Shown: one piece after another, positions 1,051-40,238 of the stretch
Position numbering within the stretch: position 1 is the stretch's first letter
Layout of the letters: every line of letters starts with the position of its first letter
Assembly (NCBI RefSeq): GCF_037975245.1
Contig: NC_092579.1
Location: forward strand, 11,394,678-11,458,677
Reading direction: 5' to 3'
DNA: 64,000 nucleotides
Source of the DNA: Apostichopus japonicus
Lineage: Eukaryota; Echinodermata; Holothuroidea; Aspidochirotida; Stichopodidae
Position numbers and translations under genes: made by a program
Notes under the pieces: model-generated
The model's input: the letters and a program-made list of their open reading frames with translations, nothing else
Told to the model about the DNA's origin: nothing
Databases searched by the model: none

Positions 1051-1817
1051 TGGGGCGTTCAATCGGGGGTAGCTCCAAATTAATTTCATTCACCACAAGT
1101 ACGCTTCAGTCCGACAACGGACTAAAATATTTGCACATAATCATATATAACCAAATATAGGACCAAAATTAAAATATATAAATGTTTATTTGATACATAT
1201 AAAATGTTTAAGTGCTTCAGTGTAATATGTGTTTCATATTCGAAAGAACACTTCTATAACTGCGTGGTCGTTTCAGTAAAGCTTAGTTGGTTGCTTTTAT
1301 AGGCTTGGATGATATATGGTTGAGATTTACTTCCGCTGTGACACAAAATACATGATGAAGTCCTGGATACTATTCGCACATCTCCAATTAGGGCCGTTTA
1401 GATTGAACATTATAAAGATATCTTTAATTATATGAAAATATGTTAAATTTAGTAATTATATAGTGTGCTTTATAATATATTTAGAATATTGCTTTTTGTC
1501 AATAATTGTTGATAGCTTGATCGTGAAATAGAGATGCAAAATTTTCAATACGTAACTGCGTTTCTCGGATGTCAACGGTACGTTCTTTAACTGCACGATT
1601 GCTCAGAATCACTGTAATGAAAACGGTATACACCAGAATTAGAAAAAAAGCAATTAAAAATCCTTTCAAATTTTGCCCTGATGTTCTTTTCCTTTTGTTA
1701 CTTCTTCGTAAGATGGTAGTGAATCGGAGATTGTAGCACTAAAACCAATAGGAATAACATCAGAAGAGTGGCTGTGAATGGAAGAGAGGCAAAAAGGAGC
1801 ATCAATATTATGTCAAA

Positions 1818-1851
1818 TTAGTTGCCACCGCCGTTATCCACTCGGTCACAG

Positions 1852-1852
<1 letters not shown>
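1818..1852 (-). mobile_element. Remnant head of tRNA-derived SINE-1
   Basis: Only the reverse complement of the SINE head (AGCTGTGACCGAGTGG..., A-box region) survives. The orthologous intron at 38936-39219 carries the longer copy, so about 240 bases of the SINE body were deleted here. Confidence 0.7.

Positions 1853-1936
<84 letters not shown>
1852..1936. repeat. (TA)n microsatellite
   Basis: About 85 bases of pure TA directly abut the SINE head; the same arrangement occurs at 39221-39310. A second, shorter TA run lies at 2548-2575. Confidence 0.98.
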
Positions 1937-1938
<2 letters not shown>

Positions 1939-2539
1939 AATAACGGAAAAACTGTTAAACAACTATGCTGCATTTAGGGAAATTTAGGGAAATACATTGG
2001 AGAGTCAAAAAACACTCTTAGAATGAGAATGACACAAGTTCACATAGATCGGCGATCAAAACAAAAAAAGATCTACCAACCTGTTGCAAATCATTTCAAT
2101 CTCCAAAATCATTCAATTGAGAATTTGCGTGTTATTGCCATTGACCAGAACGATTCTTGGACAGATAAATCTAGGAAAGCGAAAAAAATTTCTGGGAACT
2201 AAACCTAAAGACCACGGCACCATTCGGTTTAAACATCAGAAACGATTTGCCGTCCCAGATAAACCAAAACAATTCCTGGCCTTTACAATTACGACGGAAT
2301 CGGATTAAAATAATCCGACGTGGATTAAAATAATCCGAATTTCTAAAACTTCTGCTCAATTCAGCAGAAATCAGTAAGTCGCTTTGCCCTTACAACCATA
2401 CCGACATCTCCTCTATAAAACAGTTTCAATTCCTGCTACTCCTTGTCACTTTCGGTGATCATGCACTGAAGAAGAGCTAGTTTTGCTCGAAAGCTCTGCA
2501 AAAACCAAACATTGGCTGTTTTACTTCCAATCACTTACC

Positions 2540-2578
<39 letters not shown>

Positions 2579-3461
2579 TAAAATAAGGGCTAAACTGCTG
2601 ACCATCATTCAATTCACTTTGATGCATTGGTATGCCACTTTAACTTGTAGACGATAATATGTCACCAGTTGAGGAAATCCGAGTTAGAAGTGTACCTGTT
2701 TGATAAAATTTGTAAATGAGTGACTATTATTGACTTTCTAGCATATTAAAGGTCAACTTACAAATGACCGTTTAAATGCCATCAATGGTCAGACAAAGAC
2801 TGAAGCTACTAAAAACGTCTTACCCTGCTGAATCTGGGGTTTTCTTCCCTGAATCTTCTTGTGCTGATTGCTCCTGTGTAGAAGATGGATTCTCATGCGG
2901 AGCCGGATGGTAACTAACGCCGTATCCTGAACTTGATTGAATGTTTGACGATTGAAATGGTGGAGGCGATTGAAATGGTGGAGGCGATTGCAATGGTGGA
3001 GCCGATGGACATGGTGGAGGCGCAGGTGATGGCTGAGGCAAAGCTGCATGAGGCGGAGGAGGTACGTGGATAGTGTTGATCCTCTGATTCTGACCAGTTG
3101 GTTGATCCTGGTAACGTGCTATGTTCCCTCTGTTTGCCCTCCAGATCTGCAACGAGATCTGACAAAATGCAAAAATGGAAATAGCGACAGGAGCGATTGC
3201 TATATAAGGTGAAAGATAAATGCCTAGCAGGATAGCCAAAAGTGCTGCAATACCAAACCAACACAAGGTGAACGTTAAAATGAATACTTTGAAACAAGTC
3301 GATACCTTGCTTTTAGTTTTAGGTCTGTGTGGCGGTCCGCGGTATTGTACACCAAATCCTATAATTCGCTGACTGTAGTCAATGTTATTATGCTAATTTG
3401 TCGTATCACAAGTGGAATCAATCCCGCCAATTGTCACCACCATCCGTCATTTTTTTAAAAC

Positions 3462-4300
3462 TTATTTTGTAACTATTGACGTCACTCCGCAAGGCAATCT
3501 ACCCCAGTGATCACACGGATATGGAAACCATTCATATTTCACAAGTGACCTCTCCGAAATTTTAACTCCAGTCGGCTTACGAAGAACGATATAGTGAATC
3601 ATTTTTATCGGACACGAAAAATCACAAAAAAACATAACAGTCACAAGAAAGACAAGAACACCAAGCAAGCTATAATATTGAGTTTTTTATATAGCTGTTT
3701 TAATACAATTATTCTTCCCAAAATTAATTTAGATTATCTATTCAATGTCCTGAAAAAATTAGACGCTTCTCCGCTAGATACAACCATGGTATGTGTGTGC
3801 GCGCGTGAGTGTGATTTACAATGAATATACGCGTATATACATAACCTGATGCATTGGTGTGAAAATCTGTAAACAGATTAATGCCACGTCTTTTAAATCA
3901 TATAGGGCAGAAGGAGAGCAACTCGTCATACAAATGTCACTGAAGTTCTGCAGCGTTCTTGCGGTACTGCACCGGTACTTTCTGTCTTAAAATTAATGCG
4001 CTATAGCACCTTCGCTGTGAGTGCGTAATAAGTTAGAAAAGGTCGGTGAACCAGAACTTAGGCCTACCACTGCCCGCTCTATGTCCCTAACCGGGTACAC
4101 TTTACACGAATGTTTGCCGGCTATGCAGCTATATGGCTGGGTCTATATCTGTCATATTTCCTAACTGTAAAATCACTTTAAACCTGAGCTTGGAAACTGC
4201 GGTCACATCAATTAGTTTAATATTGGTGTCCTTCAATTTTCCAACACGGATTGATATGCGTCATATAGCCTAAGAACTGTATACGTCATATTCCTTACTG
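3462..4300. repeat. 5' flank of gene A1, three-copy block
   Basis: This block matches 40255-41500 (upstream of intact gene A2, apart from a MITE there) and 14605-15485 (upstream side of gene B1). It is immediately upstream of the A-gene start codons and so probably contains the A promoter. I see no clear TATA box or other defined site. Confidence 0.7.
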
Positions 4301-4319
4301 TAAAACCACTTAAAAATAT

Positions 4320-5265
4320 TTTGTGACCAAATTTATTTGGGGACTTAATTTTTTTGGACCAACATTTTTTCGGAGCAAATATTTTGAGACCAAAATTGTT
4401 TTCACGAAAAAAAAGTGACCCAAAGTTTTTTTTGGGTACTCACATTTTTTTGCCAAATCAATTTTTGAATAAATGTGTTTAGATTTAGACCAACATATGT
4501 TGTAGGCCTACCAATTGGGGGGGGGGGAGGGCGCAGTGGCCTGCGCAAATTTGGGCAATAGCCAATAGCCATGGAGGGGGAAGGGATGTCAGTCGGGGTA
4601 ATTGGGTACATGGCCCCATCACCCATGAAATCATGCAGACGCCACTGGGCGGAAACCTGAAAATTGTAAGAGTCCTAATTTGTTTCTGACCATAAATTTT
4701 AGGGCTGTGTTTTTGGTTTATAGTCTTGTGTCATGGTCCTCGATGAAAGTACCTTTTGATTTTCCTTCATAAACCTCCTTTAGTGCAACTGAATAAACTG
4801 AAACATTTAACTGACTTTTTCTCTCATTGGCCTATGTATGTATGTACCTTGTGATTTTCTTGCATCTTTCTCGTGCAAACAAACAAAATCGCGCCGCTTG
4901 CAATATTCTTTTTTTGGTCCCAAAGTTTGGCCTAAAGAATTTTTGTCCACAAAATTTGGGGTACAAACAAATTTCGGGTAACAAGCAATTTTGGGTCACA
5001 AGCACTGTTTAGGTCACAACAAAATTTGGTCAAATTTTTGTTTGGGAGGGGGGGGGGGTCACATTATCATTTTAGTCGTACGAAATAATGTACAATTTTG
5101 CTCCTTCATCTCTTAGTGAGCGCATGTACCATGGCAGTTTCGTACGAAACGTACTCAAACGATATTTTGCCTTCGTTTGTGCACATTTCTTACGAAACTG
5201 GCATAGAGCATGAGTTCACTTAAAGGACGATGGGGGACCATGTACAGAGTTCGTACAGTTTGTAC
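4320..5265. other. Low-complexity, internally repetitive insertion
   Basis: The first 70 bases match 41640-41710. The rest is absent from that copy, where the text jumps to the equivalent of 5270. It is full of reiterated GACCAAA/TTTGGTC-type words in both orientations and ends with a section rich in TTCGTACGAAAC-like palindromes (5065-5260). It could be a decayed foldback element; no coding potential is seen. Confidence 0.45.
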
Positions 5266-5269
5266 GTAG

Positions 5270-6040
5270 TGCAGAAACGGCAAGGAGAATTGTGTTGCTA
5301 AGTAGCAACGAATTCTGTCGTCTGCTTCTGTGTCTATGTCAAAGAACCCCTCAATTTCTATGTTCTATGTACATAAGTGCACAGTCCTGACAAGCTGCAT
5401 GCGTTCCAGCTGCCGTTCGATTCTAAAGAATAACTGAACATAGCAAATTTGGAATTGAAAATTGCGGAAAACATTGGGAAAATATACCAACTAGCTAGGT
5501 TACTTCGTTCGCGTGGTAGCTACTGTATAAGATCGTGACATTAGTTATTTTAGAATTTAAATACAAAGAGTAATGTAAGAGTTGAGTGCTACAAGCACAA
5601 GGGAGCGCTGTCGGTCCTTATGACATATCGAGTTATTTTAACATTATTTAACGCTGAATTCGATGTTGATTCTCCTCTCATTTATGAAACCGGGTGAGTA
5701 ATTTCAGTTCAATCGGAGTCACCGTTTGATATTTTGGATGGGGTGAACATTGCCGTTAGATCACCACTTTGACTGCAGGAATCACATTTTATACTTCCTT
5801 GGACATCGGTTACCAATACTTTCTACTGTATGATCTTTGGCTTTACATTGTTTACAGTAGTTGAAGTACCGGTTGCACGAAATCATTGGTGTCCATTAGA
5901 GTTCAATTCTAAAATTCAACGAGACCTAAGTTGAATTTTGATAGGGATTCCACCGACATCACACAAACGAGCTTGTGCAATCTCATGTAATTTCGAAGTT
6001 TAGGTGTGATGGAGGTAGAATGTAGCCCGGAGGTTAACCG
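5270..6040. repeat. Segmental duplication block, left copy
   Basis: It matches 41785-42555 in direct orientation (for example GTGCAGAAACGGCAAG at 5268 and 41781). No gene is seen. Confidence 0.75.
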
Positions 6041-6041
6041 G

Positions 6042-6434
6042 TGCTGTGGCCGAGTGGTTAATGACGGTGGCATTGAAGCAATGAAAGCTTAGCAATCGGG
6101 AGGTTCCGGGTTCGAAACCCGGCCGGGTCATAGTAAGGTTGGTTTTCCATCCATGACCAATTGACGGTTTTCCCATCTGAAATGACTTTCTAATTTTAAA
6201 AGATTCCATAAAAGTTGAATTGGAAGCCTCCCGACGTGTAAGCTGTAATCCAGAAGCCCTTGCGAGTTTCTCCCACATTTGTGGTCGCTCAAAGGGTGTG
6301 AAGACTCGCGCACAAAGAAACGTCTCATGCCGGTAATCTGACCTAGTTTCGAATGAGGTGTAACAGGAGGTTAGACACCACCATCGATCCCAAATAATAC
6401 ACACAGCTTGCTTTACCGTCGGTAATTAGACACT
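6042..6434 (+). mobile_element. tRNA-derived SINE-1
   Basis: The head is tRNA-like: A box TGGCCGAGTGGTTAA near 6047 and B box GGTTCGAAACC near 6108, with a long Ser/Leu-type spacing between them. A body that is not tRNA-like follows to about 6434. Other copies are at 42557-42815 (+), 38936-39219 (-), 1818-1852 (-, head only) and 29543-29701 (-, tail only). The independent tail-only copy helps define the 3' end. It is not a functional tRNA gene because it lacks consistent cloverleaf pairing and is repeated with divergent bodies. Confidence 0.8.
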
Positions 6435-6481
6435 AGTGTACAGTCAATGCACACAGCTATACGTTCAATACCCACAACACA

Positions 6482-7488
6482 TATGGCGGGCCATCAGTCT
6501 CAAATCGACTTCGAGATCGACTTATACCGATTTAAATCGACATATACCAGTTTTCTTCGACTTATACCAGTTTCCAGCAGCTGAAATGGACGTCTACCGA
6601 TTTAAATCGACATATGTTTGTATGTATATGTGATCTTCCCGCAAGCAGGAACTCGCGAAAGAAGCCATGGAGGCTTGTAGACTCGCAAGCTGACCGAAGC
6701 CAATCTCTCGGCACACATCCATTTAACGTCCATGTCAGGAAGTTGTTATTGAACAACACCCTTGCCAGACGACACACATTGCTGTCGGCGGGGATTCGAA
6801 CCGGGATCTCATGACTGGGAGACGCCGGCGTTAACCACTAGGCTATACACTCCGCCTACATATACCAGTTTCATATACCAGTTTCATATACCTACATATT
6901 CATTCTACATATCATCGGTATAAATCGACATATACCAGTTTAATTCGACTTATACCAGTTTAAATTGACATATACCAGTTTAAATCGATGATATGTCCAT
7001 TTAATTGTCCATAATTACTATTGACATAATCATGATGAACACCCTTGCTAGCTTCGTAATTTTGGAACTATTTAATTATTCGCCCGCCTTGTCAGGTGAT
7101 TGCACGTGATGTAGCTTCACATGTCACACAATGCTAAATCGATGATATGTCGATTTAAATAGGTATATGTCAATTTGAGATGCTAGAAACTGGTATAAGT
7201 CCACGGAAATTGACTTCTACCGATTTAATTCGACATATCATTGATTTAAACCGGTAGATGTCGATTTAAATGGACATATCATCGATTTATTTTACATATC
7301 ATTGATTTAAAGTGGTATATGTCGATTTAAACGGGTATAAGTCGAATTAAACTGGTATATGTCGATTTAAATCGGTAGAAGTCAATTTCAGCTGCTGGAA
7401 ACTGGTATAAGTCGAAGGAAACTGGTATATGTCGATTCAAATCGGTATAAGTCGATCTCTCATGATTTGAGACTGATGGCCCGCCATA
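6482..7488. mobile_element. 1.0-kb foldback / MITE-like element
   Basis: The terminal inverted repeats begin TATGGCGGGCCATCAGTCTC at 6482, mirrored at 7464-7488. A 6-base direct repeat AACACA flanks both ends (6476-6481 and 7489-7494), as expected for a target-site duplication. The arms are built of many short units related to CGACATATACCAGTTTAAAT, in opposite orientation on the two sides. The matching place in the right duplication copy (near 42815) lacks the element. No coding capacity is seen, so it must be non-autonomous. Confidence 0.8.
6612..6858 (-). mobile_element. tRNA-derived SINE-2 nested in foldback element
   Basis: Read on the - strand, the head has an A box (TAGCCTAGTGGTTAACGCC, near 6848) and a B box (GGTTCGAATCC, near 6799), and the element ends in a TATG-rich tail at its low-coordinate end. 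A short repeat ACATAT on both sides is a plausible target-site duplication. Further copies lie at 25597-25842 and 50921-51166, all on the - strand. Confidence 0.85.
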
Positions 7489-7599
7489 AACACAGTGTAT
7501 ATAGCAGCGTGGACATCTAATGTCTAGATAACAGATTACAAGGTATCACGTTTCATTACTGTCTGCATTTTGTAGCCACAGGAAGAAAACTTCAGAAGC

Positions 7600-9028
7600 G
7601 AGTCTTCAATGCCTGTAAGCGTCGTATAATAACTGCTACTGATTATATTCTAGACTGTCCTCAACAAACTGAAGAATTTTTTGGGGGGCCTACATACCGA
7701 ATTGTGGTACACTAAAAACTTCATACACCAGTTTAGGACAGCATGACGTCTCCAAACATTTAATCATAATTTTTCTGGGCAATATGTGTTGAAATTAGAC
7801 TACTAGACAGGGCTACAGTATGCTTAGAATAGTGTAGCCAAAAGTTATGAGGCCTGGTTTTATAATCGTTCTATAGCTCACACTGGTCACTTCTGTGATT
7901 AATTTATAAAACTTAAAAAGCAATGATTTTTTTAACAAAACAAAGTTAAAGTTAGGAATCGGAACAATTGGTTTGCCTGGACAACATATTTTGACGGTCC
8001 TGATAAATCGGGGAGGAGTTTACCTCTCTTTGCAGTTATGTAACAAACACATCGAAAATGGTATCTGAGTGACAGCATTCTATATGTCATCAGCAATTGA
8101 TGTTTATTAACAAGATAAACCAAAGTAAATGTATCCCAAAACTGGCTGGGAAATTATCAACAATGGAAACAGCAAAGAAATGTATGGCTAGAACAGGTTT
8201 TGAATCAGTGAGCCCGAGTTAAGAGCACGGTGCCCAGATATCTTATCGGAAATAAACAAAAGTAATAACTACCCAAACCAGCTTTATTAATTGGTCATAT
8301 AGATGGCAATATTCTCATTACATGTTCTTTGTACGAAGTATAAAGTTCAGTACACTCAGCCATTGATGTTTCTGTACATCTGGTCACCAAACATTGCCGA
8401 TTATGTACTGCAGTTTGCAGGCACTTTGCGATCATCTTGTGACTTTGCTATAACCGTGTGGTATACATTGGGAGCGCCTGTGCTTACACCTCCATCTATC
8501 CCAACTATCCCTTTAGTCTCCACATGCACACAACAGATTAATATTTCAAGGCAGATCTTTAATACAGTACTTATTTACATTTACATTATAACTAGACATA
8601 GCAAATGTAGCTTTCAACATGATATTCTAACTGTGTACAGTTGTTGATTGAACTAAGAAATGGATTTTGACCAGCAACAACCCTTAGCAAGGAGGAATAT
8701 GATAGGCTACAAATCAGTTGATGGAGCACAGGAGTTACCATAGTATGTTTCTAGTCCCCTGCTATTAGCGAAATTTGTTTGTTACGGTAGGAATCTTTTT
8801 TTAGTGTGTACTAATGTACGACTACTGAGAACATTACATAAGCTACAATAAAGTGCAATGAAAACATTGGACCAGTAGAACAGTGTAGTGTGTTTTACTT
8901 GGATTACTGTTACTGCATGGGCACGGAGTCAATTGTCCTTACTATGATATAAGAAATATATGTACAGCATGTAAGAGGGTATATTAATGTAATATCTGAA
9001 AGCTAGGTTGGACCCTGGGGAATATTAT
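7600..9028 (+). pseudogene. Duplicated DPH7 5' flank and intron 1, exon 1 deleted
   Basis: It matches 42815-44570, the sequence before and after DPH7 exon 1. The match runs to about 8810, skips roughly 255 bases containing the whole of exon 1 (44133-44300), and resumes at about 8818 (CTACTGAGAACATTACATAAGC in both copies). Without the start exon this copy cannot make DPH7. The homology stops at 9028, where the gene-B duplication unit begins. Confidence 0.8.
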
Positions 9029-9049
9029 ACTCCCTCTATTCGGTTCAAT

Positions 9050-12600: not shown

Positions 12601-14049
12601 TCAAAGACGCCCTTCAAAGTTTCCCTCGGTCTGCTTTCCCTTCGTTACTTCTTCGTAGGATGGAGGTAAATCAGAGGCCATAGAGGTACTAACATTTGAA
12701 GGCTGAGATGTCTGACTGTGAGAAAGAAAAACGAGGTAAAACAAAAATGTCAATATATACTGCCCCGAAAAAAAAGGAAGGCGGGAGAATGGTGGGTCGG
12801 ACGCACAGGGGAGTACTGTAAAAGCGCTGTCAAACATTTCCTGACCGGGATGAACCTTGATCCGCGAATCGTCAGTGTACGATAAACCGATTGAATGCAT
12901 TATTATGAAGCAGTGATACGCAGTCCCGTATAGCCATGTAATATTACATTTTCTTGGGGCAGGGCGGATATAGGGACTATCCCGTGCCCAGGCTGACTTT
13001 GGCAATCACCCTGATAAAGTATACTCGATCACCACCAGTAGTATATCTGTATATAGGCCTAATGAGCTAGATTAAGGAACGGGTTTTTATTTTGAAAGAA
13101 ATGGGGTGTGGGAGGGGGGGGGGGTTAGGGCTTATCCATACACATATAGTAATGAATCATTATACTCTAATCACCACAGCTCCTTAATGTTCTTGAGGGT
13201 TGAATAATGGTCACTAATGCTTACTTTTCAATAACCGTTACTGTCAGGAGCGTACGTAGTCAGACCGGGCACCGGGGAATTGCCCCCCCCCTCGTCCACC
13301 CCTCCACCCGTGCCGACTACTATGTCGTCCCATGTTTGTTCCATCACCATCAAGTTACATGACAAAAGCATTTTGCCCTTTCCTAAATTGTTGCTGCCCT
13401 TGCTTAGATTATTGGTCCCGACCACCGTCATAATTCCTTACTATACGGGCCTAGTCAAGACTTTGTCGCTATAATTAGCTTACCATGCTGTCTCTGTGGA
13501 GTATTGCATCCCTGGAATTATTGGAGTTTGTGTAGGATACAAGTTTACGGATGACAGATTCCCATATGTTTGATGATGATTGGTAGCATGAAATCCGTAA
13601 TTTGTTGCAAAGTGCAATGATTGATCGTGAAATCCAAAAGGAACATTTGATGTCTGAGGTGGATGAGCTGAATGAGAAGATGAATCATGGTTTATATTGA
13701 CGTTGATTCCTTCATTACGTGGTTGATTCCGAAGAGCGTTTTGGTTTTGACGGTGACTATGACAAGCTGACATAAAACAACAACATACTAAAACAGCCAC
13801 CGCTACTGGTACAATTGCTAAAAATGGTGATACATAAAGTATGAACACGACAGCCATTAATCCTGAAACTCCAACATAAACCAGTAAAACTAATACAACT
13901 AGTATCAATCCGCGTATGTTCGTGTTAAGTCTACCCGATCCATTGTAGGTTTCACCAGAGCCGGCACTACTGTGAACGTTGTTTAAGTGATGGCTCGTAT
14001 CAACTGTCGAACCAACAAATCCACCACTGTCAAAGCCTCCATCGGCCAT
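12601..14049 (-). CDS. PY-motif two-helix membrane protein, subfamily B (B1)
   Basis: This two-exon gene is predicted to give about 226 residues. Exon 1 runs 14049 to 13484 (donor GTAAGC) and exon 2 runs 12715 to 12601 (acceptor CTCACAG, stop TGA). I chose the ATG at 14049 (MADGG) over the one eight codons upstream because subfamily A starts MTDGG. After a Gly/Ser/Asn-rich N-terminus of about 45 residues come two close hydrophobic segments (LILVVLVLLVYVGVSGLMAV and YVSPFLAIVPVAVAVLVCCC), then a His/Asn/Pro-rich tail, then exon 2 with DLPPSYEEVTKGK. PPSY fits the PPxY consensus bound by WW domains of NEDD4-type ligases (family knowledge), which suggests a trafficking adaptor; that role is inference. 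Both splice sites and the intron phase match the other three copies. I do not recognise the family by name. Confidence 0.7.
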
Positions 14050-26602: not shown

Positions 26603-28456
26603 TATATTAGATAATATTGCAGAGGGTCGAATAATGGCCACCGATGCGTACTTTTCAACAACCGTTCCTGCCAGGAGCGTACAGTACGTAGCCAGACCGG
26701 GCACAGGGGGTTGCCCCCCCCCCCTCGTCCACCCCTCTACCCATGCCACTATGCCTTCCCATGTTTGTTCCACCACCATCAAGTTACCAATTACATGACA
26801 AAAGCATTTTGCCCTTTCTTACAGGAATTGTCTGGTGAAAGATGTTGATACATTGTCCTTGCATTTATTATTTTTCCCTTTCTAACCATGTAAAAATTGT
26901 TCCCATTAGACGTTTTCAAATTCACAAGTTTCTCACCAAAGGTACCGTTTGTTCGAATGCATCAATATGGTGATTGACGTAGTGCTGGCAAATCGGCAAA
27001 GCAGGCGACTTGAAGTTAGCACTCCCATTTGCGCAGCAAATACACTCTCACGTGTACACGCACATGTGATTGTCTATATAACGTACATAATGCGAACATG
27101 TATAGCCTACTGTACCATGCCCAGTTGGTATACGTATAGCGTTGTACATAATATATTCTCACACTCAAACCACAGTTCATAAACTGTTCTTCGAAATCGC
27201 TGAAATAAAATTCACGGAAATTTACAGTAAAAGGAAACTTGAACAGTATTCGGAACACCGAAAAATGAAACTTGGAGGAATCGATGTCAGAGCAGAATGT
27301 ATAGTACCGAGAAGCTTAGGCTTCGCAGAACTGTCCGATTGTATACGTTAGAGTAGCCTACATGCGAACATTCCTCGCAACGAGGAGTCTGCTGTTAAAA
27401 CTTATCTTGTGTTACAAAATAACCACGAACCCACCGATATAATACATATATCGTGGTTTTTGAAAATATTTGAAAACATTGAAAACATTTGAAAACATTT
27501 GAAAAAAGTTTTTGAAAACATATCTAATTTGTAAGAAATTTCACCGAAAATTAAGGTTTTTGTTGTGATTACTGTAGGTACTGTACGGAGCGTGGGGGGG
27601 GGGGGGGGGCTTAATAACGCAATCTGCATTAGCGTAGATGACATCACGTTCTGTACTGTTCAAATGATATTGGGAAATGTCCATCCTTAACGATTAAAAA
27701 ATCGTTTCTCTGCCAAACGCAACATTAGCGTTCTCATACTTTGACAACATGTTTGGAAAATTATTTATCATTTTTTAAGGCAACTTCTTTGGTCCACCAG
27801 ACAATCCTTTAAATTGTTAATGCCCCTGCTAGATTATTGATCACCCCCCCCCCTCCCCCGTCATACTATACGGGCCTAGTCAAGACTTTGTCGCTATAAT
27901 TAACTTACCCTGCTGATGCTGTGGAGTATTGCATCCCTGGATTTATTAATGTAGCATGAAATCCGTAATTTGTTAGAAAGTGCAATGATTGATCGTGAAA
28001 TCCAAGAGGAACATTTGATGTCTGCGGTGGATGAGCTGCATGAGAAGATGAATCATGGTTTATGTTGAAGTCGGTTCCTTCATTACGAGGTTGAGTCCGA
28101 GTACTGTTTTGGTTTTGACGGTGACTATGACAAGCTGACACGATACAAATACATACAATAACAGACATCGCTATTGGTCCAATTGCTAAAAATGGTGATA
28201 CATTAAGGGCGAACATGACAGCCATAAATCCTGAAACTCCAAACCAAACCAGAAAAAATGATACAACTAGTATTAATCCGCATATGTTCGTGTTCGTATT
28301 CGTGTTCGTGTCCATGTTCGTGTTAAGTCTACTCGATCCATTGAAGGTTTCACCAGAGCCAGCAATCACAATACTACTGTGAACGTTGTTTTGGTGATGG
28401 CTCGTATCAAATGTCGAACCAACAAACCCACCACTGTCAAAGCCTCCATCGGCCAT
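25301..28456 (-). CDS. PY-motif two-helix membrane protein, subfamily B (B2)
   Basis: This is the tandem paralogue of the gene at 12601-14049, predicted to give about 220 residues. Exon 1 runs 28456 to 27909 (donor GTAAGT) and exon 2 runs 25415 to 25301 (acceptor CTCACAG). The N-terminus MADGGFDSGGFVGST is shared with B1. A short DTNTNTNT expansion, coded by a GTGTTCGTATTC-type repeat at 28285-28322, precedes the hairpin (LILVVSFFLVWFGVSGFMAV and VSPFLAIGPIAMSVIVCICI). The His/Pro-rich tail lacks the 14-20 residues near the exon end that B1 has. Exon 2 keeps DLPPSYEEVTKGK. The 2.5-kb intron has taken in a SINE, a hAT MITE and TA repeats that the B1 intron lacks. The function is unknown; a WW-domain partner is an inference. 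Confidence 0.68.
25597..25842 (-). mobile_element. tRNA-derived SINE-2 in the B2 intron
   Basis: It is nearly identical to 6612-6858, with A box and B box on the - strand. The B1 intron at 12895-12915 (GCATTATTATGAAGCAG) is the empty site, and ATTATG flanks the insertion on both sides. Just after it, GCATTATGAAGCAGTGACA is reiterated a few times (25843-25905). Confidence 0.9.
26166..26532 (+). mobile_element. hAT-type MITE
   Basis: The terminal inverted repeats CAAGGGCGTAGGAACC / CAGTGGCGTAGGAAGG are flanked by a perfect 8-base duplication TATATCTA (26158-26165 and 26533-26540), the hAT signature. The interior is full of C/G runs and has no transposase. A second copy in opposite orientation is at 36682-37085. 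Confidence 0.9.
26541..26610. repeat. (TA)n-rich microsatellite
   Basis: An interrupted TA tract lies directly after the MITE. The element appears to have inserted into it, since TA repeats also lie on the left at 26143-26160. Confidence 0.95.
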
Positions 28457-29035: not shown

Positions 29036-29923
29036 ATTTTCGAACACGGAGCGAAACTTGCCGGATTCATGAAAAGGTTGTGCCACCTGACGACCCGAAA
29101 ATGAATGTATGAATGCATCACGTATTTGTCAAGGCTAAATGGTACTAAATGTTAGCCATTATTTGCAGTTTATATAAAGTTACAAGCACCCGTTTTGATG
29201 TAGTAATTATAACTTGAAACGCAAGGAATAACGTTTTCTGCACAGGTCATCGATTTAGCTTTAAAGGACGGAGCATTACAGATTTATTCTTAAACTCGGT
29301 CTGTTCATAGCCGTGTACATCTGCCTTTAAATGCATTGAAGACTCGCCCCAAACCGCGTGCCACCCTCTGAAGAAAAGCTAACTTTCCGTTGCTTGCAAG
29401 TGACGTTTTTTTCTTGTCGCTACAAAATGCAGACAGTAATGAAACGTGATTCCTTGTTATCTTTTATCTGGACCTGAGATGGCCATCGCTACTGTGTACA
29501 CTGGGTTGTGGGTATTGACCATAGCTGCATGTATTGGCTGTACACATGTGTCTAATTACCGACGGTAGCAAGCTGTGTATGAGTATTTTCTGGGATCGAT
29601 GGTTGTGTCTAACACTTCTGTTACACCTCATTCGAAACTAGGTCAGATTACAGGCATCAGACGTTTCTTTGTGCGAGAGTATTCTCTCACCCCTTTAAGC
29701 TCGGTACTCGGTTATCCGGTTGAAATTTCTAGGAATAGAAATTAACGTGCGTCATGGTGAGTCGATAAGAGTGTGGCTATAAATAGCAATGACTTCAATT
29801 CTTACCGGAAGTGCCGCTTCAACGTATAGAATAAGAGCATATTGTACGTAGGTGTACTGAAAGAGCGCCATCGTATATGTTGTATCATGAAACTAAACAA
29901 TATAGAGAGTCCGAAATACATAT
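29036..29923. other. Spacer with a SINE-1 tail
   Basis: No gene is seen. Bases 29543-29701 are the reverse complement of the SINE-1 tail (compare 6290-6434), a 5'-truncated copy. The rest shows no match in this window. Confidence 0.6.
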
Positions 29924-32900
29924 AGACCGGCAGCCCAGGGCACTTTGATCAAACGAACGAGGTACCAATATCTGAGTATTGGAACATTTGTGGAAAAACC
30001 CAGTATATCCAAAAGTGGATGTCTGCCGTGGTCGCTCTGCTGCATGTGGCCCCTGGGGCCGGTTAAAGGGGGCCCAAAAGTGCATCTGATCAAACGAACG
30101 AGGTACCACTCGAAACCAATGTCAACTTAATGCATGAATGCCACATAGTACTGAATGGCCCATGCCAGACAAATTTTCTGCTGCAAAGGGCCCGCCAGAC
30201 GCCCAAGAAGGGCCCCTAAAAAATGCATCTGATCAAACGAACGAGGTACCACTTGAAACCAATGTCAACTTAATGCATGAATGCCACAAAGTACTGAATG
30301 GCCTATGCCAGACAAATTTTCTGCTGCTAAGGGCCCGCCAGACGCCGCCAAATATGGCCCAAATGCCCATTAGCGTAGCATTGACCCAGATTAAATATGC
30401 AAGGTACCACTCAAAACCGGTTTGGAATGTTCGGGTTGATCTTACAGACTATGGAAATCATCATGCCAGACAAATTTTCTGCTGCAAAGGGCTCGCCAGA
30501 CGCCCCAAAATGGCCCCTAAAAATGCATTTGATCAAACGAACGAGGTACCACTTGAAACCAATGTCAACTTAATGCATGGATGCCACAAAGTACTGAATG
30601 GCCTATGCCAGACAAATTTTCTGCTGCCAAGGGCCCGCCAGACGCCCCAAATATGGCCCAAATGCCCATTAGCGTTGCATTGACCCAGATTAAATATGCA
30701 AGGTACCACTCAAAACCGGTTTGGAATGTTCGGGTTGATCTTACAGACTATGGAAATCATCATGCCAGACAAATTTTCTGCTACAAAGGGCCCGCCAGAC
30801 GCCCCAAAAGGGCCCATAAAATGCATTTGATCAAACGAACGAGGTACCACTTGAAACCAATGTCAACTTAATGCATGAATGCCACAAAGTACTGAATGGC
30901 CTATGCCAGAAAATTTTCTACTGCTAAGGGCCCGCCAGACGCCCCCAAATATGGCCCAAAATGCCCATTATCGTATCATTGACCCAGATTAAATATGCAA
31001 GGTACCACTCAAAACCGGTTTGGAACCACACAAAAACAATATTAAATGCAAAGGTACTTTCCACAGAGTAAAGAACTGCCAATGCAAGACAAATTTTCTT
31101 CTGCATAGGTCCCACCAGATAGAAAGAATAGGTGGCCCAATGTGGCCCTATATATGGGCCTAAAGAATTGGATATATGTGCCTTGTAACATGACATTTCA
31201 AGCTCATGGTTATATTGTTTCCAGCATAAATTGGAGTTACTGTACACAAGACCAGTGTTTTATCTTATTTAGCTATTCGCTGCTCTAAGCAAAATAAAGA
31301 TAACACTTTCACCTAAGCCTCTAAATATTTTGGGATTTGCTGGCCCGGGCAAAAATTACAGTTCCCCACATTATAATTCTAACACTCTGAGGAAGAGTCT
31401 TGCCTGGCTTGGATCCACAGAACTACGGTTGGAAGAGCAAGAATGGGTGCTACAGCCCTGACTGGTTTGAGGGACCGGCTCTCCCAGATCATCTATTCCA
31501 AGAGGGGGAACTGAGCGAAGATTTTCAAAGTAGCCGACCAGACGTGGCTTCCGAGTTTGATGCCGATGATTCAAGTACTGAACCATCTTGGAGTGATGAC
31601 TCCGACAATGAAACATAGATTTGAGCTTCCAATGTCTTTTTAGAATCAAGTTCATGGGAATACTTAATTTTCATAAACTTACTAATGATTCTTTTGAGAT
31701 CTGTCTGAATGGCAAATGCAGTGTCTTTTTACATCACACACTCCAGTGTTTAATCACTGTCAAGAGACATGAATTCTCAGTTCTTATACTTCGAACCTAA
31801 CATGTGTCATGTTCAGAGTAATCACATAGTGATCTTTTGTTACTATCTTTGCCAATTATGATTTTATTACATTTTAAACTAGCAAGATGACTTTCTTGAA
31901 AGGTAAAAGATTCCTTCATAGATGAAAACAAAAACCCTCATCTAGCATTCATATTTCTGAAAAATGGATGCCACATCTATTTGTTGGACTTGTTACAAGC
32001 TATTCGAATTGAATTAGTGTAATGATGGAAGTTCTAAAAGACCAAGATGGAGTAATATAGGCCAATTACTCATTTTATATTTTGTATCAAGGAATGGAGT
32101 CATACGTGGTGATATCAGTATTTGTTTGTTCAATCTTAGCATTTTAAGTCCTTTAAAGAGTGTACCTAGCATAAAGGTACATATACATTTATATGCTTCA
32201 ATTATGTATCTTTCAAAAACCATATTGGACAGTTTCAACCCAAACCTTTATCGTTAAGTACACGTTATAAAGCATTTTCACCATTGTTTGATAATTGTTT
32301 CTTTGTCTGAGCTTAAGAAACAAAACAATCTCTTTTGTTCGACTACATGTATGTCTTAAGATGACACTTAAGCGTTCTTTTTCAAGATTTTAAACTTTGT
32401 AGATTTACAATGCTAACGTAAACACAGTGTTTCAAGATACAAAATGATTTTGGGTTTCTTATTTACAAAACATAAACTGATTTTAATCTGCCCCAGTGTT
32501 TCCAGCGAAACAAAGTAACTGCCAAGTTAAACACTGCTCACGATACAAAGTACTGACTGGATAAAAGAAAAAAGAATGGATAAAAGGAAAAAGAATGGAT
32601 TTGAGAATGCATTATAACTGTCAGGATCTCCCTCAAAGACTGAGTTTCTCGTCATTTTTGTTTTGCTCAATGAAATGTTCAATTATTGATACACCTACTA
32701 GTATACTAATCTCATTATTCCATTGGCCTATGTAGCGGGAAGGAATTTGAATAATTCAGGATGTTCTTGATTGTTATAGATTGGTTTCTTGTGGTATCTT
32801 AACTATTTAAACTGTATAATTTTTTTTACATGTGGTGGGCACTTTGCAGAAGAAAATTTGTATTGTATTGGCATTTCTTTACTCTGTGGAATGCTACAAA

Positions 32901-34010
32901 TGTCATGTCACAAGGCACATATAGTCTGCATCGATATACAATTCATTAGGCCCATATAGGGCCGCATTGGGCCACCTATACTTTCCATCAAGTGGGACCT
33001 ATGCAGAAGAAAATTTGTCTTGCATTGGCAGTTCTTTACTCTGTGGAAAGTACCTTTGCATTTAATATTGGTTTTGTGTGGTACCAACTATGATTGATCA
33101 TGGCCCATTTGGGGGCCCTCTTTTAGTGTGTCTGTTAGCCCGTTTGTAGCAGAAAATTTGTCTGGCATGATGATTTCCATAGTCTGTAAGATCAACCCGA
33201 ACATTCCAAACCGATTTTGAGTGGTACCTTGCATATTTAATCTGGGTCAATGCTACGCTAACGGGCATTTGGGCCATATTTGGGGGCGTCTGGCGGGCCC
33301 TTAGCAGCAGAAAATTTGTCTGGCATGGGCCATTCAGTACTTTTTGGCATTCATGCATTAAGTTGACATTGGTTTCAAGTGGTACCTCGTTCGTTTGATC
33401 AAATGCATTTTTAGGGGCCCTTTTGGGGCGTCTGGCGGGCCCTTTGTAGCAGAAAATTTGTCTGGCATGATGATTTCCATAGTCTGTAAGATCAACCCGA
33501 ACATTCCGAACCGGTTTTGAGTGGTACCTTGCATATTTAATCTGGGTCAATGCTACGCTAATGGGCATTTGGGCCATATTTGGGGGCGTCTGGCGGGCCC
33601 TTAGCAGCAGAAAATTTGTCTGGCATAGGCCATTCAGTACTTCGTGGCATTCATGCATTAAGTTGACATTGGTTTCAAGTGGTACCTCGTTCGTTTGATC
33701 AGATGCATTTTTTTAGGGGCCCTTTTGGGGCGTCTGGCGGGCCCTTTGCAGCAGAAAATTTGTCTGGCATGGGCCATTCAGTACTATGTGGCATTCATGC
33801 ATTAAGTTGACATTGGTTTCGAGTGGTACCTCGTTCGTTTGATCAGATGCATTTTTGGGCCCCCTTTAACCGGCCCCAGGGGCCACATGCAGCAGAGCGA
33901 CCACGGCAGACATCCACTTTTGGATATACTGGGTTTTCCACAAATGTTCCAATACTCAGATATTGGTACCTCGTTCGTTTGATCAAAGTGCACTGGGCTG
34001 CCGGTCTAAT
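29924..34010. mobile_element. 4.1-kb foldback element with tandem sub-repeats
   Basis: The ends are inverted copies of TAGACCGGCAGCCCAG (left at 29923, right ending at about 34009). The arms, about 29924-31200 and 32895-34010, are reverse complements of each other over more than 1 kb. Each arm is an array of roughly 300-base units; GATCAAACGAACGAGGTACC recurs at 30088, 30231, 30531 and 30829. The 1.7-kb core is single-copy here. No unambiguous target-site duplication is visible (TAT/ATA only). Long open frames in the arms arise from the repeat itself. Confidence 0.85.
31371..31618 (+). other. Possible terminal exon inside the foldback core
   Basis: A 72-codon open frame contains GCYSPDWFEGPALPDHLF and an acidic, Ser-rich end (DADDSSTEPSWSDDSDNET) before a stop. 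An aromatic-Gly patch plus acidic tail is a plausible protein C-terminus, possibly a relic of the element's own transposase or of a captured gene. I do not recognise it, and no firm splice acceptor is visible. Confidence 0.3.
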
Positions 34011-35435
34011 ATGTTGTAACTAAGATATTAACTAACCTTGTAGTCATTGTCAAGATTAAAACATGGTGTAAGAATAATTATCGTATGCTTTATACCCCGC
34101 AATTCGTGAATCTCACAGATTATAACAGGAAGTCAGTATAGGCTATAGCAAACAATGAATTGCCGATCTCAAAAAGCCCTGTGTGTGATTGAGTTGTGGT
34201 TGCTGGGTATTCTGCAATTGCTCCACGTTAGAATAGTATCGGTTCAGCTGGGCCTATCGCATTACCAGTGTTAGTCTAGAGGCTACTGTTGATCACGATA
34301 AATAATGCTGTTCCGCTACCACCAACTTTGAGTCTGTTAGAGCCACATATTTAGGAAAACTTGGGAGAAATTTCAGCAAGTTATGAAACTGTCACACGGT
34401 AAGAAGACAAACTCGACAGGTTAAAAACTTTAAACCTTGCATTATTCAAAAAGATCAATAATGTAAAATAAACTGTTCTACCTTGTTTTGATATAAGTTA
34501 TACTGTACTAGTTATACCCAACTCGCCTTTTTCCCATTGAGTACCGAAGTGTATAAAATATTCACACTTCTACCGCAAGATATACACAGCGTAACTTTGT
34601 AGAATTGCATTCACACGGGCCTCATGTACAATGTTTACTTTTAAAACAGACATTTGTGAATACCACCAATCAAAATAATAAAGAAGCACCTTGTTTAATT
34701 GCTCACGAAAAGTGGGGAGGAAGGGGAAGCAATGATTATTATAATTCACATATTGGAGTCTCTGCACTAGCTGCAGCCGTAACATGCAGCTATGCTGTCA
34801 ATTCAACTCGGGCGCTGCAGCAACGTACCCTCTAGGTCCCGGAAGACACAGTTTGAATAGATAGAAACTTAGAGAAAGACATAACAGTGATGTGCGTGAG
34901 AGCGGGTAGGAAAAAATGCGGTGATTACTGTTCAAGTTTCATGAAAAGGACTGGCTGCATGTCGAAAGGAGGGACAGCGCATGGGATTCAAAAGGATCGG
35001 CAGTGATGTCTTCGTTACCCTCACCCCCACCCCCCCCCCCACCACCACCACCACCACGCGCCCCCGAGACCGACAATCGATCCTATCTTATTGATACTAG
35101 CCTTACAATGTAAATGCGTGATTGAATACATCTAATTCTTGAACAGTTATATAGCGTCACACAACAAACATTTCAAACACACATCCAGTGTATACAGACA
35201 TCTAATTTTGGTTGCATTACTTTCATTCACTCAGTTGCAGGGATACGCCATACACAAGTGCTCGAATATACAGATTAACTTTAATATACAGAAAAGGGTC
35301 GAATGAAGCTGGTAGAAGCTTGAAACAGTGGAACGAATGGTTTACACAGGGTCGTACAAAATTGTTGGGGGGAGGGGACAGATGGTGGTGTCAGAATTCG
35401 ATCTCATATCGATAATCTAAATATTGTTTTTCTTT
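34011..35435. other. Spacer, nothing recognised
   Basis: It contains a C-rich/CCA simple-repeat patch (35025-35060) and otherwise unmatched AT-rich sequence. No supported gene. Confidence 0.5.
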
Positions 35436-36505
35436 CTTAACTCTTTATGTGCCATGCAGGACCGATTGCTCTACAACAACCGCACATGTTGACAATTGGT
35501 TTGATTCTTGATCATTCTTTAGCGCTACTATATAGGAGCCTATGGGCGGAGTACTAGAATTAAGCAGAGACTTAAAACTTTCGGAAGTAGTTTATGCCAA
35601 ACTCTAACCGTGAAGAGAAACTATGCAGTGCAGTTTATAGTAACCTTTCTCATTTTCCTAACTCCCCCCCCCCCCGCATCGTATTTGCAGACAGCATGAA
35701 ACAGTGTAATGTAGCAAAATGATTGGATGGACAGGCCGTTTGGATTAATGGGTATGTTTTGTTTAGCCAGGGAAATGGTAAATCAGAGGACCTAACTGAA
35801 GGTAGCATATACGCCCATTAAACGCCCCGCCGACTTGCACTCTAACTCACAAAAGTAATGTGGTCTCTAAATCTAGATAGAGGTTCTCAATAGCTAAACG
35901 TTGCATAGCTGACGAGTTGGCCATTCATGGCATTATCAAGTTTCCGTATCATGACCGCGCAGATTTTTGCTATCAGAGCCTGACGTTTTCGTCACTTGTA
36001 AACAAACCTCTTCACTCAGTAGTATACAATTTTCGTACGCTGCTCCTGGGAGACCTAAAGGTGTATTCATTGCCTCAATTGACCCAACTTTTGCACCACA
36101 TGTACTTCCATTCATGCTCTGTAACATGCAAAAATTCATACCCTGATTGATAATGTATCCCCAAAGATGTTCTCATATTGCATGTTGGCAATTTTACTGA
36201 GATAGGAGAACATCCGGGCGGATTGATATAGACTCTAATAGGAGTATGCCACCTGAAACATGAAAAATAGCAAAATAGTTTTACATCCAAAATAAAAGAT
36301 GAAAATTTTCATTAGTTAAATTGTCACGTGAATTCATATAACATAAACATGTTTCACAACTGAACCAATCCTTTAATAAAATACTGTGCTGTGTGCATAA
36401 AACAGGGTTAATCAACGTTTATCGCAGGATTATGCACTCACGGCGGCCCGGTATAACGCTATTACTGAATGCATTCGTCCTACGGCGGTGTGCATCGCTT
36501 GCGTT
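35436..36505. repeat. Segmental duplication block, right copy
   Basis: It is the partner of 1-1010, in direct orientation. The homology breaks at about 36505 and resumes at 38165 (partner of 1080). The 1.65 kb between holds a MITE and a LINE tail inserted only in this copy. Confidence 0.8.
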
Positions 36506-36681
36506 ATGTAACTGTCACAACCCGTTCTGGGATAACCCCCTTAAGTATTTTATTGATTGCTTTACGTGTTTAGTTAATGGATGCTAATTATTTAGCCATG
36601 GTTTTGTGCATCCTTAAGCATTACGTAATCATTTTTTTGTTAACGAGTATCGGAATTCCGTCGGCCTGGGGTATAAATAGA

Positions 36682-37085
36682 CAGTGGCGTAGGAAGGTAC
36701 TTTTGAGTGTGGGGGCTGAAGACTGATGGCCGGCTTGGGGGAGGGGTCTAATGGGAGGGGTCTAAGGGGAGGGGGCCCTCCCCTTTGGATTTTTTTTGCA
36801 TGGGGGCCCCCTCCCCTTTGGAATTTTTTTGCATTTCCAGGTGGCCTCAGATGCAATTTGGTGCAATAGAGCACACTTCAACACCCACTCCATTTTGTAA
36901 AGAATTTTGCATTTTCACCTGGCCTTAGATGCAATTTGGTGCTTCAAATGAGTTTTTTTTCTCATTTGGAAATGAAAAAGGGGTTTTCTGACTTGCGGAG
37001 CGGGGGGCGGAACGATACTTCCGCCCCCCATATTTTTCACTGGGGGGGGCTGGCTCCCCCCAGCCCCCCGGTTCCTACGCCCTTG
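36682..37085 (-). mobile_element. hAT-type MITE, second copy
   Basis: It is an inverted relative of 26166-26532. It is flanked by a perfect 8-base duplication TAAATAGA (36674-36681 and 37086-37093), with ends CAGTGGCGTAGGAAGG and GGTTCCTACGCCCTTG. It has G/C-run-rich content and no coding capacity. Confidence 0.9.
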
Positions 37086-37439
37086 TAAATAGAACAGTAA
37101 AGCCACGTGCTCTCTTTTTTCAATCTCGGTCTTGAACCGAAAGCAAAACCAGGCAGGGAAGAAGCTAAATTAAAGCTTGAACGAGGAAAGAAAGAGAACG
37201 TGGAACTAAGAAAAGGAAAAGGCCGACGCTCATATAGAAAGAACATTCATTTGTATTAACCATTAACGTTGACAGAACCCTCAACGAAACAAAACTAGGA
37301 CCATAAAAAAGAAAGGATGCCATATGAAGTATAGACATGAAATATTAAAAGAATATATATAGAAAATGATGATTTATTTTGTTCTATGTAATCAATATTA
37401 ATTTATTGTTGTTGTTGTTTATAATTATATTGAACCTTT

Positions 37440-38095
37440 AAAACTGTGTCCTCCAGAAGAGAGCTATCCGCCATATATCACATGCTGCACCACGTGATCA
37501 TACTAGCCCATTATACAAAAGATTAAATTTATTAAAACTAAATGATATTATAAGAGTCCAGCTTGCAACATTTGCATATAAAGCATGGAATGGATTGCTA
37601 CCCGAGGCTTTTAAAGATTTTATATATAGTAATAGACTAATCCACAACCATCAAACACGCCATTGTAATAACGCCCATGTTTTATCCCAACGAAGTACTT
37701 TAAGTTCTTTTAACCCTCGTATTCGTGCTGTAAAAACGTGGAATAATCTCCAGGATAATGTTAAGAATAAGCCTTCTTACTCTGTATTCAAAAGGAATCT
37801 CCAAACTGTAATTATTTCTCACTATTAATGGATTTATTCTTGTGTGTGTTTGCGATTAAGATCATTATAAAGATTGTTAGGATCGCTTATTAACATTATT
37901 AATTTCTAGTAGAGTCAATTCGATTATTTCATCATTGTAGATGCTACTATTAACTTTTCATTTCTATTCTTAAGTTTTTCTTTCTTTTTTCTTTTTGGGG
38001 AGTCTCCTACTTTGTTAAGCCTTACAGGCTTTATAGGAGACTTCCCGTCACACTGTAAATTGTGATGAAACAAATAAATATACAAATACAAATAC
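37440..38095 (+). mobile_element. LINE C-family fragment, 3' end
   Basis: It encodes the last part of a reverse transcriptase ORF (LQKRAIRHI, then TFAYKAWNGLLPEAF, then RAVKTWNNLQDNV) up to a stop at 37826. The 3' UTR holds TTGTTAAGCCTTACAGGCTTT, like 12456-12480 in LINE C, and it ends in an AAATAC-type tail. It is 5'-truncated. Confidence 0.85.
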
Positions 38096-38781
38096 AAAAC
38101 GCATATACTCTCTCTGTCCGTCTTTACGCCGTTGTCGACTTCTCTCTTAAAAGAATCCGTTCAAAAATTCAAATTAATTTCATTCACCACAACTACGCTT
38201 CAGTCCGACAACGGACTAAAGTATCTGCACAGAATCATATATAAGCAAAATATGGGACCAAAATTAAAGTATATAAATGTTTTATTTGATACATATAAAA
38301 TATTTTAGTGTTTCAGTGTGATAGGTGTTTCATATTCGAAAGAACACGTTTATAACTGCGTGGTCCTTTCAGTAAAGTTGAGTTGGTTGCTTATGTAGGC
38401 TTGGATGATATGGTTGAGATTTACCGTTCCGCTGTGACACAAAATACATGATGAAGTCCTGGATACTATTCGCGCATCAGTTAGTTCAGTTCAGTTAGGG
38501 CCTTATAGATTGAACATGATAAATATATATTTAATTACTATGAAAATATGTTAAAATTTAGTAATTATATACTATGCTTCATAATATATTTAGAAGATTG
38601 CTTTTTTGTCAATAATTGTTGATAGCTTGATCTTGAAATAGAGATGCACATTTTTCAATACGTAACTGCGTTTCTCGGATGTCAACGGTACGTTCTACTA
38701 CGTTGCACGATTGCTCAGAATCACTGTAATGAAAACGGTATACACCAGAATTAGAAAAAAAAATAGCAATTAAAAATCCTT

Positions 38782-39219
38782 TCAAATTTTGCCCTGATGT
38801 TCTTTTCCTTTTGTTACTTCTTCGTAAGATGGTAGTGAATCGGAGATTGTAGCACTAAAACCAATAGGAATAACATCAGAAGAGTGGCTGTGAATGGAAG
38901 AGAGGCAAAAAGGAGCATCAATATTATGTCAAATTAGATATCCATTTCAACGTTCAAGCGACCACGAATGTGGGAAAAGCCCGCCGGGGCGTATGGAATA
39001 CAACTTTAACGTCGGGTGGCTTTCAATTCAATATTATAACTCCAGGTTGGAATCTTTTCAATTTAGAAAGGCATTTCAGATGGGAAAACCGTAGATTCTT
39101 TTGGATGAAAAACCCACCTTACTACTGTATGACCCGGCCGGGGATCGAACCTCGAACCTCCAGATAACTAAGCCTCGTTGCTTCAAATGCCACCGCCGTT
39201 ATCCACTCGGTCACAGCTG

Positions 39220-39313
<94 letters not shown>

Positions 39314-40238
39314 TAAAATAAGGGCCAAACATATTATGCTGACCATTCAAATCACTTTGATGCATTGATATGCCAATTTAACTAGACGATAACATGTCAC
39401 CGGTTGAGGTAGTCCGAGTAAGAAGTGTACCTGTTTGGTAAAATTTGTACATGAGTGACTATTATTGACTTTCTAGCATATTTAAGGTCAACTTACAAAT
39501 GACCGTTTAAATGCCATCAATGGTCAGACAAAGACTGAAGCTACTAAAAACGTCTTACCCTGCTGACTCTGTGGTTTTCATCCCTGAATCTTCTTGTGCT
39601 GCTTGCTCCTGTGTAGAAGATGGATTCTCATGCGGAGCCGGATGGTATCTAACGCCGTATCCTGAACTTGATTGAATGTTTGACGATTGAAATGGTGGAG
39701 GCGATTGAAATGGTGGAGGCGATTGAAATGGTGGAGGCGATTGAAATGGTGGAGGCGATTGAAATGGTGGAGGCGATTGCAATGGTGGAGCCGATGGACA
39801 TGGTGGAGGCGCAGGTGATGGCTGAGGCAAGGCTGCATGAGGCGGAGGAGGTACATGGATAGTGTTGATACTCTGATTCTGACCAGCTGGTTGATCCTGG
39901 TAACGTGCTATGTTCCCCCTGTTTGCCCTCAAGATCTGCAACGAAATCTGACAATATGCAAAAATGGAAAAAGCGACAGGAGCGATTGCTATATAAGGTG
40001 AAAGATAAATGCCGAACAGGATAGCCAAAAGTGCCGCAATACCAAACCAACACAAGGTGAACGTTATAATGAATACTTTGGAACAAGTCGATACATTGCT
40101 TGTAGTTTTAGGTCTGTGTGGCGGTCCGCGGTATTGTACACCAAATCCTATAATTCGCTGATTGTAGTCAATGTTATTTTGCTCATTGGTCGTATCACAA
40201 GTGGAATCAATCCCGCCATTGTCACCACCATCAGTCAT
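38782..40238 (-). CDS. PY-motif two-helix membrane protein, subfamily A (A2)
   Basis: This is the intact subfamily-A gene, predicted at 261 residues. Exon 1 runs 40238 to 39559 (226 codons plus two bases, donor GTAAGA). Exon 2 runs 38887 to 38782 (acceptor ATTCACAG, stop TGA). The N-terminus starts MTDGGDNGG. A hairpin follows at about residues 55-95 (FGIAALLAILFGIYLSPY, then IAIAPVAFSIFAYC). The next section is rich in Gln and Pro and has five SPPPFQ units at about residues 165-194. Exon 2 ends DSLPSYEEVTKGKEHQGKI. LPSY deviates from strict PPxY but fits the broader L/PPxY group (family knowledge). Placement, phase and the SPY/SPF-AI-PVA hairpin core tie it to subfamily B. The function is unknown. 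The 671-base intron holds a SINE and a TA microsatellite. Confidence 0.72.
38936..39219 (-). mobile_element. tRNA-derived SINE-1 in the A2 intron
   Basis: On the - strand the head AGCTGTGACCGAGTGG lies near 39217, the B box GGTTCGATCC near 39145, and the body reaches about 38936. The A1 intron keeps only the head, so the SINE predates the A1/A2 split. Confidence 0.85.
39221..39310. repeat. (TA)n microsatellite
   Basis: About 90 bases of TA adjoin the SINE head, the equivalent of 1852-1936. Confidence 0.98.
39683..39791 (-). repeat. 18-bp coding VNTR (SPPPFQ units)
   Basis: GATTGAAATGGTGGAGGC repeats five times, plus a variant sixth unit. The A1 copy at 2952-3006 has two plus the variant. 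The length change is a multiple of 18, so the frame is kept. Confidence 0.95.

Follow-up and report, generated by a model that had tools for sequence, protein, structure and literature searches.

Units encoded in the window

The window, the whole 64-kb stretch of Apostichopus japonicus DNA considered in the current analysis (C19:11394678-11458677; coordinates with the prefix C19 refer to the genome and plain coordinates to the window), encodes members of an array of genes for putative small membrane proteins with a predicted helical hairpin and a PY motif (PPxY or LPxY) close to the C-terminus. The minus strand bears all four occurrences of the tail motif, (P/L)PSYEEVTKGK (1687-1716, 12634-12663, 25334-25363 and 38803-38832), a number that none of 100 shuffles reached. 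Gene models rebuilt around these matches give four minus-strand units, G1 to G4 (1666-40238), with one common plan. Exon 1 encodes an N-terminal tail, a helical hairpin around the core SP(Y/F)(I/L)AI.P.A and a low-complexity tail, and is followed in all four units by a GT-AG intron of 671 to 2493 bases in phase 2, G1 being counted with its 1-base frameshift set aside. The last exon, of 106 or 115 bases, bears the tail motif. The common architecture with its tail exon and the single phase-2 intron had been described in an earlier note on this DNA and are borne out. The open frames that it reported for all four loci are present in G2, G3 and G4 but not in G1, and the MTDGG and MADGG starts occur as variants beside MAAGG.

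The units fall into two types, A (G1 and G4) and B (G2 and G3), with about 30% identity between the types in exon 1. G1 (1666-3450) is broken, as its exon 1 (2824-3450), that of a pseudogene, is shifted by one base before the end of the tenth codon and then meets an in-frame TAG in the resumed frame; exon 2 of G1 (1666-1771) encodes HSSDVIPIGFSATISDSLPSYEEVTKGKEHQGKI. The intact A-type unit, G4, has a joined frame of 261 residues composed of an exon 1 (39559-40238) with a Pro-rich (PPPFQS)n tail 3' of the hairpin and an exon 2 (38782-38887) with the LPSYEEVTKGK tail. Both B-type units end in PPSYEEVTKGK. The joined frame of G2 is 226 residues long and comprises an exon 1 of 188 codons and two bases (13484-14049), ending in phase 2, and an exon 2 at 12601-12715; its hairpin segment, residues 45-98 (13756-13917), is the segment tested for positive selection. 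G3 encodes 220 residues in exons at 27909-28456 and 25301-25415.

AlphaFold2 models of exon 1 of G2 and G4, built without exon 2, have two helices separated by a short loop, 42-72 and 79-107 in G2 and 48-78 and 85-114 in G4, and the rest of the chain is predicted to be disordered. The mean predicted local distance difference test score (pLDDT) is low, 49 for G2 and 57 for G4; at this confidence the models agree with the two close hydrophobic helices suggested previously. The sequence has Arg and His behind helix 2, which favours a cytosolic location of the tail.

The 110-kb array

Analysis of 200 kb around the window has identified 12 copies of exon 2, all on the minus strand, between C19:11,324,257 and C19:11,434,915. 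The family thought earlier to have four copies is thus an array of about 110 kb with 12 tandem units, of which 8 are open, 2 are frameshifted A-type units and 2 have exon 2 only. All seven B-type units with an exon 1 (M1, M3, M5, M6, M8, M10 or G2, and M11 or G3) have it open and with a phase-2 donor, and the last exon of M8 stops directly behind PPSYE. Among the A-type units M12 (G4) is open and M2 and M9 (G1) are frameshifted, with no donor found in M2 by a scripted search. Exon 1 was not found for M4 (A-type) and M7 (B-type), in which exon 2 is present. Most B-type units have the PY motif as PPSYEEV, and the A-type units have it as LPSYEEV; PPSY or LPSY is retained in 11 of the 12 exon-2 copies, and M4 has IPSY. 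Some of these units may already carry gene models in the annotation of the assembly.

Genome searches covered 671.6 Mb in 35 contigs, and their match counts are lower bounds. One of these contigs, C35 (16,099 bases), is a mitochondrial genome with AAA at Asn and AGA at Ser positions that are conserved in COX1, in keeping with the echinoderm code. B-type exon 1 has at least 10 matches, all inside the array, and A-type exon 1 at least 15 at E-values up to 10, with 11 in the array and 4 outside. The pattern search, made with the PPSYEEV form and without LPSYEEV, returned seven matches when Ser was encoded by TCN, namely six B-type units and the single-copy gene described below, against one match for the reversed-pattern control; with Ser encoded by AGY it returned none in the genome.

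A single-copy gene with the same architecture

A single-copy gene (locus L031, C19:17,740,636-17,741,761), about 6.3 Mb from the array, has the same architecture and intron phase. Its hairpin exon ends in a phase-2 donor that follows PAYA, and the exon after it starts with PDPSTDKPPSYEEVMAG and contains KPPSYEEVMAG, the sole PPSYEEV match (Ser as TCN) of the genome outside the array. The gene is also the best match for A-type exon 1 outside the array (C19:17740636; E-value 0.17, 27% identity). The exon 1 search and the motif search converge on this locus, about 0.7 kb apart and on one strand, and it is therefore a probable distant relative of the array. Several results, beside the high E-value of 0.17, speak against close kinship. 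The hairpin of the gene resembles that of the A-type unit M12 to a degree reached by 4 of 500 shuffles, and none of the seven B-type proteins stands above shuffles in the same comparison (220-394 of 500 reach the similarity). Profile comparison with the array aligned 15 columns, around the motif alone, at a probability of 81%. When the genome was searched in the reverse direction, the gene recovered itself and a single weak match on C16, and not the array. The tail of the single-copy protein is much longer than that of the array proteins. Since this gene on the same chromosome has the hairpin and PY architecture, that architecture probably predates the array.

Search for related families

No convincing match to a known family has been obtained for the array proteins in Pfam, in NCBIfam (the bacterial and archaeal library) or among PDB sequences, and the view that the family cannot be named is upheld. 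WBP-1 (PF11669) has the best E-value (0.00097) among the five Pfam families listed for G2. The score of G2, 20.2 bits, lies below the curated cut-off of 28.1, the family is listed for two of eight members at E-values up to 1, and WBP1 membership was rejected. WBP1 has a Cys-rich extracellular N-terminal domain, a feature that is absent from the array, where all eight proteins have at most one Cys before residue 50. WBP-1, DUF2207_C, ABC_membrane and DUF3561 were likewise rejected as families, as their weak matches lie in hydrophobic stretches and are not the same in the different copies.

The Pfam listings of G2, G3 and G4, which extend to an E-value of 10 but from which the filters drop most matches above about 0.1, do not contain the profiles of Pmp3 (Sna3/Pmp3-type proteins), of NDFIP (PPxY adaptors with three transmembrane segments) or of CD225/dispanin (IFITM), which we take to be PF01679, PF10176 and PF04505. 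TMEM51, whose profile is presumably PF15345, is likewise absent from the Pfam listings of the array proteins and of the L031 gene. Two features of known classes are nevertheless present: two close transmembrane helices (predicted, at low pLDDT) with a C-terminal PY motif, as in the Sna3/Pmp3 type, and the PPxY or LPxY form of NEDD4-type PY adaptors in 11 of the 12 exon-2 copies, together with exon 1 tails that are predicted to be disordered in G2 and G4. Among viral contigs 50 pattern matches yielded no confirmed relative. In a literature search neither the motif as letters (SYEEVTKGK, PPSYEEV, PSYEEV) nor TMEM51 together with PPxY was found. Judged from their sequences, the array proteins appear to be a variant of membrane PY proteins that fits no curated family.

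Maintenance of the reading frame and selection

Selection was analysed in the seven B-type units with exon 1, which are paralogs. Of the 14 distinct gap intervals in their exon 1, 12 have a length divisible by three, compared with 11 of the 36 intervals upstream (Fisher p 0.001); the remaining two are single bases, and all seven frames are still open. Neutral change would be expected to produce about 10.4 stops, and a single one, that of M8 just behind PPSYE, is observed (p 0.0003). Since frame-breaking gaps and stops are avoided, the reading frames are maintained by selection.

The ratio of nonsynonymous to synonymous substitution rates (dN/dS, or omega) is 1.02-1.08 overall for the B units and differs between segments, with 0.74-0.87 in the N-terminal part, 1.56-1.86 in the hairpin, 0.81-0.88 in the tail and 0.42-0.63 in exon 2. 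With one omega fitted per segment, the hairpin differs from 1 (1.8-1.9, p 0.03) and the remaining segments do not. In the comparison of site models M1a and M2a, twice the log-likelihood difference (2dlnL) for the whole gene is 22.8 on one tree and 12.9 (p 0.0016) when four segments are each given their own tree. For the hairpin alone it is 15.4 (p 0.0005), and sites 62, 64, 68, 69, 70, 80, 87, 88 and 91 (G2 numbering) have a posterior above 0.9; outside the hairpin it is 2.7 (p 0.26), although residues 28 and 186 exceed 0.9. When the hairpin is given its own codon frequencies the value rises to 25.9, which none of 80 simulations at omega 1 reaches (largest 13.5). By these tests the hairpin of the B units shows site-specific positive selection, and exon 2 tends to be constrained. 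The comparison between two B units proposed in the earlier note, extended to seven, thus gives an overall ratio of about 1 that is made up of a more constrained part and a positively selected hairpin, and the claim of fast evolution holds for the B-type hairpins.

Proposed function of the array proteins

These observations suggest that the array encodes small membrane adaptors, similar in action to Sna3 or Commissureless, that recruit NEDD4-type ligases by their tail and a partner by their hairpin, a reading to which we assign a probability of about 0.55. The two close helices would make up a hairpin whose termini both lie in the cytosol, and the PY motif of the disordered C-terminal tail would, from its form, be a binding site for WW domains of a ubiquitin ligase of the NEDD4 type. 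The TKGK lysines directly behind the motif are the likely ubiquitin acceptors; four of the seven B-type proteins (M3, M6, M10 and M11) have lysines exclusively behind it. The hairpin may bind a membrane partner within the bilayer, and partner and adaptor could then be ubiquitinated and sorted to late endosomes. Tandem duplication would yield a set with a constant ligase end and a varied membrane end, a pattern apparent in the sequences since exon 2 tends to constraint and the hairpin is positively selected. The membrane adaptor for ubiquitin-dependent sorting, which had been put forward as a testable idea, thus stays the most likely function, by inference.

A number of points weigh against this proposal. 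None of the family profiles places the array proteins. Lysines precede the PY motif in M1, M5 and M12, and M8 has lost TKGK while keeping PPSYE. The selection test uses seven paralogs and our own implementation of the codon model; the excess of the hairpin over 1 with one omega per segment (p 0.03) is weaker than the signal of the site models, and omega of exon 2 is not significantly below 1 (p 0.35-0.43). The N-terminal part has signs of gene conversion (log likelihood -464.7 on its own tree and -478.8 on the full tree). Noncoding upstream windows diverge about as much as the hairpin or more, so that relaxed constraint on the hairpin stays as a weaker alternative.

The array proteins could also be PY-tagged membrane cargo, in which the hairpin has its own job, such as membrane shaping or pathogen restriction, and the tail sets the turnover of the protein itself. 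The anatomy would serve this purpose equally, and a fast-changing membrane part with turnover of copies (8 open, 2 frameshifted, 2 partial) suits a gene of immunity or conflict. The degradation of IFITM3 promoted by NEDD4, described in the available part of PMC4532365, offers a precedent. The Pfam families at E-values up to 10 for G2, G3 and G4 include neither CD225 nor another fitting profile, and we regard this explanation as possible but doubtful.

That the units are mostly decaying duplicates under relaxed constraint, in which the small role of most copies accounts for an overall dN/dS near 1, would agree with the overall omega of 1.02-1.08, with the two frameshifted A-type units and with the two units that have exon 2 only. 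Decay of this kind is nonetheless unlikely in view of the avoidance of stops and frame-breaking gaps, the 57-67% of sites at an omega of about 0.4-0.5 in the whole-gene site models and the hairpin excess above all 80 neutral simulations. An origin from a gene borne by a transposable element or a virus, although the units lie amid reverse-transcriptase remnants and repeats, was rejected as highly improbable, since all 12 units found lie on one strand in one 110-kb array, introns are present, no further clear copy appeared in the genome searches (lower bounds), no relative was confirmed among the viral contigs and no transposon profile matched in the Pfam searches.

The adaptor reading may be taken further, to a germline repertoire of ubiquitin-ligase adaptors with a constant recruiting tail and a variable transmembrane reader of host or pathogen membrane proteins, although we consider such a repertoire rather unlikely. 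The membrane-buried hairpin, and not an exposed domain, would then be the recognition surface under diversifying selection, a suggestion just as tentative. The membrane proteins that are to be ubiquitinated and destroyed are selected by membrane PY adaptors, and how these adaptors choose a partner inside the bilayer is hard to study by other routes. If the adaptor reading is true, a held ligase end with a diversifying transmembrane end would provide natural variants for studying this choice, and if the locus is one of immunity, the array would add an unusual kind of diversified gene to the echinoderms.

Duplications and neighbouring DNA

G1 and G4 lie in the left (20-9025) and right (35440-44570) arms of a segmental duplication, with aligned pieces 80-92% identical, and these arms and the tandem array support the earlier claim of an expansion by segmental or local duplication. 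Beyond the B-type 5' flank of G2 lies an A-type 5' flank (14605-15490), pieces of which share 87-90% identity with the G4 flank, and a second such flank, without an adjacent A-type exon 1, has been identified beyond M5 (C19:11,355,235-11,355,840). These orphan flanks are perhaps the trace of unequal exchange between the types. The duplicated arms differ at 8801-8809 and 44065-44328, where the left arm lacks about 264 bases that are present in the right, with matching sequence to either side. These bases contain a short coding exon, presumed to be exon 1 of a plus-strand WD40 gene resembling DPH7; three of the presumed exons of this gene have no Pfam match at an E-value of 0.01.

Other features of the window include a large inverted repeat (29918-31025 and 32994-34014), with its longest aligned arms 93% identical and with tandem units of about 141-158 bases, and a minisatellite at 49816-50516 with a period of mostly 26 bases. 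Endonuclease and reverse-transcriptase open reading frames and a PHD-finger open reading frame are located at 18289-20116, 23573-23926 and 20514-20858; that at 23573-23926, of the endonuclease and reverse-transcriptase group, scores just under the Pfam cut-off. Short open reading frames on the minus strand at 56258-62394 resemble exons of a villin/supervillin-type gene, and four of them, each searched as a single exon, have no Pfam match at an E-value of 0.01. Rfam gave no match at the gathering score and ARAGORN no tRNA over the window.

Relation to known membrane PY proteins

The vertebrate group of TMEM51, TMEM174 and TMEM252 has two membrane spans and PSYEEV-like or PPxY tails; in terms of profiles the array differs from it, as the Pfam listings of the array proteins and of the L031 gene include none of the three. 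Like the array proteins, transmembrane PY adaptors such as WBP1 and CYYR1 have PY motifs in the tail. Commissureless spans the membrane once, unlike the two-helix array proteins, and one of its PY motifs is LPSY, like the A-type form. The term LPSY itself occurs in those parts of the Commissureless literature that were available, and the accessible text of PMC8509885 counts the LPxY form, which A-type LPSY represents, among the canonical PY motifs of Nedd4 ligases. According to the available part of PMC12101832, Drosophila Commissureless, a membrane protein, brings Nedd4 to a receptor by its PY motifs, so that the receptor is down-regulated, and these motifs are required for its complex with Nedd4 and Robo1.

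The yeast sorting protein Sna3p, as described in the accessible part of PMC2171029, has two transmembrane domains, a single lysine that is ubiquitinated and, in its cytoplasmic C-terminus, a PPAY motif for Rsp5 binding, and the Sna family is placed there in plants and fungi. The array proteins are like Sna3p in being small and in having two transmembrane domains (predicted in the array) and a C-terminal PY motif, and are unlike it in having no Pfam profile match; that part of the paper makes no mention of a tandem array with a diversified hairpin. Of the systems compared, Sna3p is the closest to the array in predicted anatomy and Commissureless the closest in the mechanism proposed here.

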